Of a stretch of DNA of 64,000 nt, positions 370 through 63,324 are shown piece after piece; the stretch's first letter is position 1; each line of letters starts with the position of its first letter. Location: the NCBI RefSeq assembly GCF_004342485.1, contig NZ_SMBU01000006.1:62001-126000 (forward strand). The letters run 5' to 3'. Position numbers and translations under genes: made by a program. Below the pieces are notes generated by a model. That model had not been told where the DNA came from, made no database searches, and saw nothing but the letters and a program-made list of their open reading frames with translations. Source of the DNA: Roseateles saccharophilus (lineage in GTDB: Bacteria; Pseudomonadota; Gammaproteobacteria; Burkholderiales; Burkholderiaceae_C).

Positions 370-378
370 ATTTGCCCC

Positions 379-408
379 CCCCGGCCCAGCGCGTAAGCTG
401 GTCCGGGG
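379..408. terminator. Hairpin between convergent genes, related to the window's repeat family
   Basis: Arms CCCCGG-C-CCAGC and GCTGG-T-CCGGGG enclose the loop GCGTAA. It lies ten bases after the channel stop codon and faces a minus-strand reading frame ending at 411, so it could terminate both. There is no T-tract. The inner stem with a GTA-containing loop matches the first hairpin of the repeats at 16966, 23767, 24649 and 63202. Confidence 0.5.
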
Positions 409-410
409 CT

Positions 411-557
411 TCACTGCAACGGGGCCTGCGCGCTGCCGGTCCAGCGCAGCAGCTGCATCAGCGACGGCGCCTGGGTCTTGCCCAGCAGGTGGCGCACATG
501 GCTGCGCAGCGTCGACAGCTGCAGGCACGGATGCCGCGCCGCATGCTCGACCGTCAT
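411..557 (-). pseudogene. Fragment of a LuxR-type HTH C-terminus
   Basis: This 48-codon frame starts two bases beyond the coaX stop. Its product contains [20 protein letters not shown] followed by QLLRW, which resembles the DNA-recognition helix and the end of LuxR/FixJ-type HTH domains (pattern S-T-L-R-x-H-V-x-x-L-L-x-K). No receiver domain or first HTH helices are present, because coaX occupies the DNA upstream. The simplest reading is the residual 3' end of a regulator. A short real gene, or chance similarity in GC-rich DNA, is also possible. Confidence 0.3.
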
Positions 558-15969: not shown

Positions 15970-16968
15970 ATGAGCGACAGCAGCAAACCCGTCACGATGG
16001 AGCAGATCGCCGTGCTGGCCGGCGTCTCCACGATCACGGTCTCGCGCGCGCTGCGCGACAGCCCCTCGGTCACGCCGGCCACGCGCGAACGCATCAAGAC
16101 GCTGGCCGAGGCGGCGGGCTACCGCTTCAACCACCATGCCCGCAACCTGCGCCTGCGCCGCAGCCACATGGTTGCCGTCATGCTGGAGATGCAGCCCGAC
16201 GCCGACCGCCCGATGACCGACGCCTACCCGCTGCAGCTGCTGGGCGGCATCACGCAGGAGCTGACCTCGCGCGGCTACAGCGTGCTGCTGTCGGCGCTGC
16301 AGAGCCCGGGGCAGAGCGTGGCCAGTTCGGCCGATGGCGTCATCCTGCTCGGCCAGGGCGCCAACGGCTCGGCCGTCAAGTCGGTGGCGGCCATGGGCCT
16401 GCCGCTGGTGGTCTGGGGCGCCGAGCACGGGCGTAGCGACTCCGTCATCGTTGGCGGCGACAACGCCCATGGCGGCGCCTGCGCGGCCGAGCGCTTCATC
16501 GACATGCAGCGCAGCGAACTGCTCTTCCTGGGCGACGTGCGGCACGCTGAGATCCGCGACCGCCAGCAGGGCTTCGTGAAGGCGCTGAAGAAGGCCGGCA
16601 TTCCCGGGGTGAGGGCCCACACGCTGACGCCGGCGGCCTTCACCTTCGGTGCCGGCTTCACCGCGGTGCAGGCCCATCTGGCCAAGGGCGGCAAGGCGCC
16701 GGACGGGCTGTTCGCCGCCAGCGACCTGCTGGCCATGGGCGCCGTGCGCGCCTTCACCGACGCCGGCCTGACCGTGCCCGAGGCCGTCTCCGTCATCGGC
16801 TACGACGACTCCCCGGCCGCGCAGAGCTTCGCGCCACCGCTGACCAGCGTGCGCCAGGACTGGCACCACGGCGGCGTGCTGCTGGCGCGCAAGGTGCTGG
16901 ACCTGATCGCCGGCCAGGGCGCGGCCAGCGAGATCATGCCGACCGAACTGGTCATCCGCGCGACCTGA
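15970..16968 (+). CDS. LacI-family transcriptional regulator
   Basis: A cytoplasmic DNA-binding repressor or activator of 332 residues, normal for the family. The N-terminal HTH is [20 protein letters not shown] (residues 8-27), followed by the hinge region and a periplasmic-binding-protein-like effector domain ([18 protein letters not shown]). The linked target is unclear: no sugar operon adjoins it. The gene upstream is the ANTAR regulator on the same strand with 139 bases between. The operator sites of the xylan locus are far away and more likely belong to the second LacI gene at 48612. The stop codon is overlapped by the first copy of the multi-hairpin repeat. Confidence 0.88.
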
Positions 16969-17088
16969 AGCCCCTCGTCCAAGGAGTACCTTGGCCGGTC
17001 CCCCGGGGGGACGGCGATGCTTGCCGGCTCGACCGGCAAGCACATCGCCAGAGCGGGCCGGCTTGGGAGCGGCCCGGCGCTCGGCCCG
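16966..17088 (+). repeat. Multi-hairpin repeat, copy A
   Basis: The element begins on the LacI stop codon (TGAAGCCCC) and ends with CTCGGCCCG, 41 bases before the next gene's preferred start. Four hairpins follow each other: CCAAGG-AGTA-CCTTGG (16979-16994), GTCCCC-N3-GGGGAC (16998-17012), GCGATG...CATCGC with inner CTTGCCGG/CCGGCAAG (17014-17048), and CGGGCC...GGCCCG with inner GAGCG/CGCTC (17054-17088). The last 35 bases are identical in copies B and D. Confidence 0.8.
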
Positions 17089-17129
17089 AAATGCACTGTG
17101 CCAGCGAGATGAACGCGACAATCACGCCC

Positions 17130-23622: not shown

Positions 23623-23766
23623 GGGCGATGAATAGCTGGTCTGTGGCGAGCGACTGCAGCGGGGCGCTGATGGCGCCCAGCGTTGCCAGGTCGACCCGCT
23701 GGGGGCCGCGGGCATGGGAGGCGTAGATGGCCATGATGAGGATGTTCGACGTCGTTGTCGGTGAAA

Positions 23767-23890
23767 TGAAGCCCCTCGTCCAAGGCGTACCTTGGCCGGT
23801 CCCCCGAGGGGACGGCGATGCTCCCGGCATTGAGCCGAGAGCACGTCGCCCAACGCGGGCCGGCTTGGGAGCGGCCCGGCGCTCGGCCCG
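23767..23890 (+). repeat. Multi-hairpin repeat, copy B
   Basis: It starts TGAAGCCCCTCGTCC and ends CTCGGCCCG, 60 bases before the WYL-regulator ATG. Hairpins: CCAAGG-CGTA-CCTTGG, GTCCCC-CGA-GGGGAC, GCGATG/CGTCGC with inner CTCCCGGC/GCCGAGAG (one mismatch), and the conserved last hairpin identical to copies A and D over 35 bases. Confidence 0.8.
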
Positions 23891-23950
23891 CATGAAAGCT
23901 GACACAGGTCTTCAGCAAGGGGCATGCCGGCTGGCCCACAATGCGCGCCC

Positions 23951-24646
23951 ATGCGCCGTGCCGACCGCCTCTTCCAGATCGTCCAGCTCATCCGCGGGCG
24001 CCGCCTCACGACGGCGGACTACCTCGCCCAGCGGCTGGAGGTGTCGATGCGCACCGTCTACCGCGACATCGCCGCGCTCGGCCAGCAGGGCGTGCCCATC
24101 GAGGGCGAGGCCGGCGTGGGCTATCGCATGCGGGCCGGCTTCGACCTGCCGCCGCTGATGTTCAGCAAGCAGGAGGCCCAGGCCCTGGTCGCCACCGTGC
24201 GCATGGCCGAGTCGCGCCTGGACGCGGCCCTGGCCCGCGAGGCCGAGAACGCGTTGTCCAAGATCCTCGCCGTGCTGCCGCTGGACGCGCGCGCCGCGGC
24301 CGAGAGCCTGGCGCTGTATGCGCCGTTGCCGGCCCTGGACCCGGCCACCAGCGCCCACCTGACCGCGATGCGCGAGGCCACCGAGGCCAGGCGCAAGCTG
24401 AAGATGGGCTATCTCGACCTCGGTGGCGTCAGGAGCGATCGCATCGTGCGCCCGCTGGCCTGCCTGTTCTGGGGGCCGGTCTGGACGCTGGCCGCCTGGT
24501 GCGAGCTGCGCAACGACTTCCGCAGCTTCCGCGTCGACCGCGTCGAGACGCTGGAGGTGCTGGAGGAGGGCTTCCGCGACGAGCCGGGCAAGACCCTGGC
24601 CGACATGAACCGGCGGCGCGAGGCGCAGGAGAGCGGCGGCGCCTGA
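23951..24646 (+). CDS. YafY-type transcriptional regulator (HTH + WYL)
   Basis: The product is 231 residues. An N-terminal winged helix (RADRLFQIVQLIRGRRLTTA, then VSMRTVYRDIAAL) is followed by a WYL ligand domain (MGYLDLGG, IVRPLACLFWG, NDFRSFRVDRVE). Members bind DNA and respond to small ligands or nucleic acid ends. The start was placed at MRRADRLFQ, where the family begins; an ATG 27 bases earlier lacks similarity. The upstream VOC gene is a plausible target, by analogy with common gene pairs. The stop codon is followed within two bases by copy C of the repeat. Confidence 0.87.
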   Translation: MRRADRLFQIVQLIRGRRLTTADYLAQRLEVSMRTVYRDIAALGQQGVPIEGEAGVGYRMRAGFDLPPLMFSKQEAQALVATVRMAESRLDAALAREAENALSKILAVLPLDARAAAESLALYAPLPALDPATSAHLTAMREATEARRKLKMGYLDLGGVRSDRIVRPLACLFWGPVWTLAAWCELRNDFRSFRVDRVETLEVLEEGFRDEPGKTLADMNRRREAQESGGA

Positions 24647-24648
24647 AA

Positions 24649-24795
24649 TGGAGCCCCCGGCCCAGCGTGTACGCTGGGCCGCCCCTTCGGGCCGGCTTGG
24701 TGAACTGGAGTCGGACACAAGCAGCCCCTGCGGGCTGCCTGTGCCTACGGAAGGCCATGGGCCTCTGGCCCATGGCAGGCCCGGCGCTCGGCCCG
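24649..24795 (+). repeat. Multi-hairpin repeat, mosaic copy C
   Basis: The 5' part (TGGAGCCCCCGGCCCAGCG) matches copy D and the 3' end (GGCCCGGCGCTCGGCCCG) matches A, B and D. The centre is different: GCAGCC-N5-GGCTGC and GCCATGGGCC-TCT-GGCCCATGGC replace the third hairpin. The first hairpin is CCCAGCG-TGTA-CGCTGGG. It ends 46 bases before the serine acetyltransferase ATG. Confidence 0.75.
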
Positions 24796-63092: not shown

Positions 63093-63201
63093 GGCGGTCT
63101 CCCAGGTTGTGGTGGCGCCATGCTCGGCGCTGGCAGTGACAGGACGTGTCAGCTATCCATTCCGCGTTCGCGGCACCACACGGCATGAAACCGGGATTTT
63201 G

Positions 63202-63324
63202 CGGGCCGAGCGCCGGGCCGCTCCCAAGCCGGCCCGTACTGGCGATGTGCTCGCGGCTCAATGCCGCGAGCATCGCCGCCCCCGCGGGGGGCGGACCAGC
63301 GTACCCGCTGGGCCGGGGGCTCCA
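63202..63324 (-). repeat. Multi-hairpin repeat, copy D
   Basis: Read on the minus strand it starts TGGAGCCCCCGGCCCAGCG and ends CTCGGCCCG. Hairpins: CCAGCG-GGTA-CGCTGG, CCGCCCC/GGGGCGG, GCGATG/CATCGC with inner CTCGCGGC/GCCGCGAG, and the 35-base 3' hairpin identical to copies A and B. It lies between divergent genes, sense-oriented to the VOC gene. Confidence 0.8.

Follow-up and report, generated by a model that had tools for sequence, protein, structure and literature searches.

The 64,000-nucleotide stretch of Roseateles saccharophilus DNA analysed here (the window) contains four copies and one remnant of a hairpin-rich repeat, which probably represents a family of non-autonomous mosaic mobile DNA repeats, retained or positioned immediately 3′ of stop codons. 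A mobile REP-like unit was among the possibilities raised in the earlier note on this DNA; a dispersed, REP-like unit is supported by the number of copies found in the genome (74), by their consistent orientation, by stem covariation and by the lack of an Rfam match. The units of the window, composed of a leader and up to four hairpins (hp1 to hp4), are the following:

Copy A, 16966..17112, plus strand: folds into four hairpins and is absent from 5/5 relatives with the downstream gene; stop codon TGA at 16966-16968, leader GCCCC from 16970, hp1 at 16976-16997, hp2 at 16998-17012, hp3 at 17013-17049 and hp4 at 17054-17088; the right end may be the further TGA at 17110-17112.
Copy B, 23762..23902, plus strand: both ends resolved; TGA at 23762-23764, leader at 23771.
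Added DNA of copy B, 23765-23902 (138 bp), plus strand: includes the terminal TGA at 23900-23902.
Copy C, 24644..24795, plus strand: stop codon TGA at 24644-24646, leader at 24653; hp1, hp2 fused to hp4, and hp4 with a two-hairpin extension; no hp3.
Copy D, 63149..63320, minus strand: leader at 63320, end of the tail at 63202.
Remnant, about 374..412, plus strand: leader, hp1 and GGGGC, 4 nt past a TGA stop at 367-369.

The sequences and positions of the copies reported in the earlier note were confirmed, and a repeat finder, unprompted, recovered the pairs on its own (A/B, 85% over 84 nt; A/D, 80% over 126 nt; B/D, 100% over 37 nt). The last 35 bases, which correspond to hp4, are indeed identical in A, B, and D. 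The four-hairpin shape that had been described held for these three copies, each of which folded into four hairpins (z = -3.5 for A, -3.1 for B, and -2.95 for D; 200 dinucleotide shuffles per copy), and did not hold for copy C (z = -3.8), in which hp3 is lacking and hp2 is fused into hp4. The hp4 extension of copy C, about 90 nt with two hairpins, was found in other copies as well. Copy D has an additional right-hand stretch that reaches 63149 and terminates in GGATAGCTGA, the GCTGA of which is present in empty sites too.

Beyond the window, the repeat measures roughly 120–300 bp and its left end, before the leader, reads ATGRA. The leader is [G/A]CCCC. It is followed by an hp1 that is either short, of the CCAAGG or the CCCAGCG type, or long and then contains GCTGAACGC; by an hp2 that is either short or about 75 nt longer; by hp3, GGCGATG..CATCGCC, whose stem varies and whose loops include ATTGA and ATCGA; and by hp4, GGGCCGGCTTGGG..CGGCCCGGCGCTCGGCCCG, which is short or bears the two-hairpin extension. 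The NGTA loop previously thought to be constant in hp1 proved to be one of several, as CCTA, CTTG, ATTA, and GCGA also occur among the 24 distinct short hp1 sequences. A loose match to an additional right-flank module was present in 12 of 197 distinct right flanks, most of them terminating in GGATA(A/G)CTGA or similar, and internal deletions leaving only leader and tail were seen among some of the tail matches (L012, L015, and L024).

With no more than one mismatch allowed, the tail sequence CCCGGCGCTCGGCCC was counted 90 times in the genome (61 exact), against 19 occurrences of a reversed control pattern. The 74 copies come from a search of the 5.77 Mb draft genome (E ≤ 0.01) with R1, a covariance model of hp2-hp3-hp4 built from 32 copies. 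At E ≤ 0.001, R1 had matches in 23 of 60 genomes, the source genome included: all 20 sampled genomes of the genus, with 11 to at least 71 matches each, and 3 of 16 genomes from other genera of the same family, one of which (G024) had just one match, weak and without a recognisable core. None was obtained in 24 genomes of other families. In a GTDB sample of the family, 24 of 250 genomes matched (E ≤ 1e-4), belonging to 14 of 141 genera, its own included. A pattern scan of named genomes retrieved 28 stretches, with titles naming Pelomonas, Roseateles, or Burkholderiales/Comamonadaceae MAGs. Plasmid and phage collections gave no blastn match at E 1e-5. Separately, one copy (L265, 885-917) was observed on an IMG/VR contig, 3′ of a predicted co-directional gene; the contig may be bacterial.

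No named family had been recognised in the earlier note, and the searches agreed: Rfam gave no match at the gathering threshold for the window and none at E ≤ 1 for copy A, while a long-form copy (L044) gave three matches with E values of 0.42–0.97, all far under gathering. A literature search, with most subscription journals outside its reach, found no description of this hairpin repeat.

The position of the copies relative to genes, which were predicted by a purpose-built codon score, was highly regular. No copy (0/74) fell within a predicted gene. The upstream gene was co-directional with the unit in 63 of 74 copies (p = 5e-10) and the downstream gene in 50 of 73; within tandem gene pairs, 45 units were sense and 6 antisense (p = 2e-8). 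The leader could be located in all but 4 of the 74 copies, and in 56 of the 59 co-directional copies with a located leader it started -1 to +9 nt from the upstream stop codon (tandem, 41/43; convergent, 14/15; contig end, 1/1). The three exceptions are copy B, 197 nt beyond the nearest predicted co-directional stop, the truncated unit L148, at -19, and L043 (about 1813-1893), which lies 66 nt past the stop and 3′ of a terminator-like hairpin with a T-run. In the window, copies A and C are directly 3′ of stop codons and copy D is located between divergent genes; altogether, 11 of the 74 copies have no co-directional gene upstream. A location 40–110 bases before a start codon, as first described, is a fair account of the four copies and not a rule: the informative landmark is the stop codon of the upstream gene rather than the start of the downstream one. 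The genome-wide covariance-model search suggested at that time thus returned many copies in a consistent orientation, and it did not uphold the anchoring 5′ of genes.

The same register was observed in relatives, where 25 of 27 readable loci (25 congener loci and 2 from other genera) agreed with it; these were read out of 29, L119 and L122 being without a core in this set, and L119 was read in the set of other genera. In that second set, counted by eye, 13 of 16 readable loci were directly behind a co-directional gene. The exceptions were L256, 157 nt away, and L245 and L264, which do not follow a co-directional gene; no core was present in L260 and L122, and L258 and L259 were read at the wrong place. 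Two of the loci from other genera, L252 and L253, hold pairs of same-direction copies about 120–145 nt apart. Another arrangement was seen at L018, L059, L149, L150, L111, and L129, where antisense copies, some without hp3, lie directly 5′ of a start codon; there the leader's complement (GAGGGGCT) would occupy the place expected for a Shine-Dalgarno sequence.

GC hairpins just past stop codons, 17 of the 74 copies being located between convergent genes, could point to a family of intrinsic transcription terminators. We regard this as very unlikely, given that no U-tract follows hp4 (no right-flank position has T in more than 23 of 69), that units occur within close co-directional pairs such as lptB-rpoN, and that L043 stands behind a separate terminator-like hairpin.

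Evidence for mobility comes from the comparison of filled and empty sites. Copy A was absent from the five relatives retaining its downstream gene (out of 14 with the upstream gene), copy B from each of the 11 relatives (out of 19 searched) in which the flanks could be aligned, and copy D from all 10 readable relatives (2 more were unreadable), 6 of which retain the divergent neighbour. The sister genome G005 is without A, B, and D. For copy C, relatives were both filled and unfilled. The insertion of copy B was resolved exactly: the filled site reads GTCGGTGA / AATGAAGCCCC...GCATGAAAGC / TGACACAGG, the empty site in G005 and G012 reads GGTGACAC, and the 138 bp added have TGA on either side. 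The word GGTGA is intact in 7 of the 11 empty relatives.

Turnover was also apparent at orthologous genes of the genus. The lptB-rpoN site was filled in 10 of 20 genomes, the fpr site in 8 of 18 (including one truncated and one decayed unit) and the fliG site in 3 of 20, requiring 9, 6, and 3 changes, respectively, on a tree in which 6 of 17 inner branches are strongly supported and on which change counts cannot separate gain from loss. At lptB-rpoN, G013 and G004 (L184 and L191) carry short post-stop scraps, GCCCCGGTGCTGA and CGCCCTGGTGCTGA; these resemble the remnants of deleted units, and absence is therefore not always the older state. At fliG, G000 and G015 share the same flanks and differ in hp1 and hp4, a swap of modules in place.

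Other sequences were seen in these slots. An inverted repeat of another kind, reading CACAGAGGCACAGAGACACAGAG...CTCTGTGTCTCTGTGCCTCTGTGG or nearly so, lies in the same post-stop positions at L186, L226, L229, L231, L233, L240, and L284, after lptB, fliG, and the gene for a WYL-type regulator in other species. A third hairpin-rich sequence, like CCCCCTACCGGCTTCGCCGGCCCCCTCAAGGGGGCG, lies just past the fliG stop in three relatives (L234, L235, and L241). In G019 and G011 (L295 and L298), a single in-frame stop is present in the WYL-type regulator gene, which in the window is between copies B and C.

As a short, non-coding repeat gained at new sites, the unit could also be taken for a MITE mobilised by a DDE transposase. 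Its ends (GCCCC... and ...GGCCCG) are not inverted, however, and no duplication beyond the TGA was found at copy B, which makes this reading scarcely credible. Local alignment over 63 copies likewise gave no longer target duplication (permutation p = 0.68).

Copy B suggests that TGA is the insertion target. Among the 41 copies with a stop codon at least 5 nt away or absent, 28 had a TGA or TGG within the last 5 nt 5′ of the leader (20 TGA, 8 TGG only; background 10.2%, p = 7e-19), a count that reflects the unit's own end and not the target, because the leader-adjacent TGA at copy B belongs to the added DNA. Such a TGA or TGG was found in 7 of the 11 copies without a co-directional gene. By eye, none of these 11 has a TGA at the place of B's target, 6–12 nt before the leader. 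Adjoining stop codons were not enriched in TGA (56/63 against 52/62 controls, p = 0.45), a comparison of low power. At the right end, each of the three filled fliG sites has a TGA one base 5′ of the following start codon, and 45 of 69 copies have a TGA no more than 70 nt from the tail, a count with no control set; a right-hand TGA was not retained as a general rule.

A neutral model in which the target is TGA, based on 102 element-free tandem spacers, predicts 68% of units at or near the stop codon and 70% in sense orientation. The observed values were 41/43 (p = 1e-5) and 45/51 (p = 0.002). The register is thus tighter than the model predicts, so that something else is needed. TGA targeting could explain much of the register; selection, either for a function or against harm elsewhere, must account for what remains and could explain all of it. 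That the repeat homes to stop codons, an unrecognised system of single-strand transposition in trans inserting it on the coding strand directly 3′ of TGA, is a doubtful, though possible, proposition.

Stem pairs covaried. The covariation score was 0.130 in the 32-row alignment, against 0.044 when shuffled (reached in 0 of 500 shuffles), with 50 doubly changed cells, and 0.172 against 0.068 in 76 locus matches of the source genome (73 distinct). Significance was assessed by column shuffles and slid partners, and the shuffles overstate it because the copies of one repeat are related. The invariance of hp4 and of the base of hp3 in the 32-row alignment is by construction, since the rows were selected by patterns fixing both; in the 76-match set, both-sided changes were seen in 5 of 13 hp4 pairs, in few cells each, and extended forms blur this hairpin. 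For hp3 (54 usable of 60 distinct arms), there were 455 Watson-Crick, 4 G-U, 13 A-C, and 14 other pairs (p = 0.049 for G-U against A-C). Over all helices, half-changed pairs amounted to 60 G-U and 57 A-C. Neither tally showed an excess of wobble pairs on the sense strand, and the covariation is therefore no evidence of selection on a sense RNA. In a separate tally of long-form hp1, the unequal arms left 3 to 11 usable out of 41. The earlier note had read the compensatory changes as pointing to selection on structure or to a replication mechanism dependent on it; the covariation itself stood, exceeding column shuffles. The suggestion made there of an insulator, attenuator, or stability element in mRNA is not supported, given the lack of G-U excess. 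The palindromes are maintained, and DNA hairpins, palindrome correction, or the swapping of whole tips would fit equally well. None of the outcomes named beforehand as speaking against a structured element, namely random orientation, no covariation, or membership of a described family, came out.

These data bear on a second reading, in which the repeat is a selected 3′ UTR element: hairpins beside the terminating ribosome would stabilise the upstream mRNA or damp read-through, and register and orientation would be functional whatever the insertion target, as has been proposed for E. coli REPs. The covarying stems, a register tighter than TGA targeting predicts, and the filling of the same post-stop slots by other hairpin repeats in relatives all argue for it. 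It has to be set against the half-changed pairs (4 G-U to 13 A-C in hp3; 60 to 57 overall), the high turnover of presence and absence at orthologous genes, and the 11 of 74 copies that are not behind a co-directional gene. We put its probability a little short of even.

On the mobile-repeat reading that we prefer, the unit would be a mosaic of strong hairpins, the tips of which can be interchanged, and would have a left end ATGRA-GCCCC. New copies would arrive in a single orientation, mostly -1 to +9 nt past the upstream stop, and become 3′ untranslated hairpins of the upstream gene, with modules later swapped in place or the unit deleted. Insertion may occur 3′ of TGA, stop codons being harmless TGAs, and the hairpins, once in place, may slow the 3′ decay of the upstream mRNA. 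Movement could proceed through a folded single strand by an HUH-type enzyme acting in trans, as we infer from the hairpins, the single orientation, and the absence of a duplication. A rolling-circle (IS91-like) enzyme is a further possible mover.

A more specific candidate would be the resident RAYT (Y1) transposase, the repeat then being a REP-type element. The repeat is hairpin-rich, intergenic, and without terminal inverted repeats, and a Y1_Tnp match was present in 20/20 genomes of the genus, both of which agree with this idea. Yet Y1_Tnp occurs also in genomes without the repeat, the unit has no GTAG and no conserved CGTC tag, and R1 gave no significant match at seven RAYT loci, including five from the genus (best E = 0.83). 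The one Y1_Tnp match of the source genome is in the gene at L138, 1762 to about 2608 (G000:C29), which is flanked by inverted ends of a different type, GGGGTCGGAGTC / GACTCCGACCCC. RAYT-driven movement is therefore unlikely in our estimation.

If the preferred reading is true, a target that steers a mobile repeat to gene ends would constitute a safe-landing strategy, and a homing repeat would supply its host with ready-made 3′ untranslated regions. Sites that differ among named Roseateles/Pelomonas isolates make both the mover of such repeats and the effect of 3′ hairpins on mRNA testable. The family would be added to the small repeats of the REP, YPAL, and BOX kind, with which it was compared.

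REPs and BIMEs are described as intergenic palindromes present in tens to thousands of copies, with compensatory stem variants and near gene ends (PMC3733652), and these traits are common to both families. A REP, however, is a palindrome of 20–40 bp with an unpaired GTAG/CGTC tag, whereas the Roseateles unit is about 120–300 bp, carries several different hairpins whose order and direction are fixed, and ends in ATGRA-GCCCC and GGCCCG. Next to hp3, the tetranucleotide GACG (CGTC when read on the opposite strand) is confined to copies whose hp2 is GTC..GAC; copies of the GC type have GGCG there. BIMEs are clusters of alternating REPs, whereas at most loci (about 1.5 kb examined on each side) single units were found here, with two same-direction pairs. 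RAYT-associated REPs flank the Y1 gene; our unit was not at the seven RAYT loci searched. GTAG REP ends often provide a stop codon (PMC3733652), and in E. coli, 446 of 4,072 predicted REPs are reported to lie no more than 15 nt from one (PMC12306157). The post-stop position is alike, but here 56 of 59 measurable co-directional copies are within 9 nt, in one direction.

The YPAL (RU-2) element of Yersinia, of about 168 bp with internal palindromes, was recently mobile, as judged by empty and filled sites, and may affect upstream transcripts (PMC2229807). It shares with our repeat the nature of a palindromic mobile unit with both kinds of site. Its target duplications are reported to be of 3–26 bp, at or beside dyad symmetry (PMC2229807), as opposed to TGA (3 bp) at copy B only and none over 63 copies here, where the hairpins are four and separate. 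Pneumococcal BOX elements are modular with a variable middle, and have terminal inverted repeats and target duplications (PMC3049150); the modularity is alike, but our repeat has no terminal inverted repeats and no target duplication beyond the TGA of copy B. SPRITE elements, also pneumococcal, are enriched near gene 3′ ends (PMC3049150), a preference in common, and differ in being AT-rich with a U-rich, terminator-like tract. Finally, IS200/IS605-type elements are characterised by subterminal hairpins, by an insertion that is strand-specific and 3′ of a short, fixed target, and by the absence of a longer duplication; in the present repeat hairpins are present and a longer duplication is lacking, with the TGA target resolved at copy B only. 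The stop-codon register, the single orientation, and the interchangeable hairpin modules would set this family apart from the known short non-autonomous palindromic repeats.
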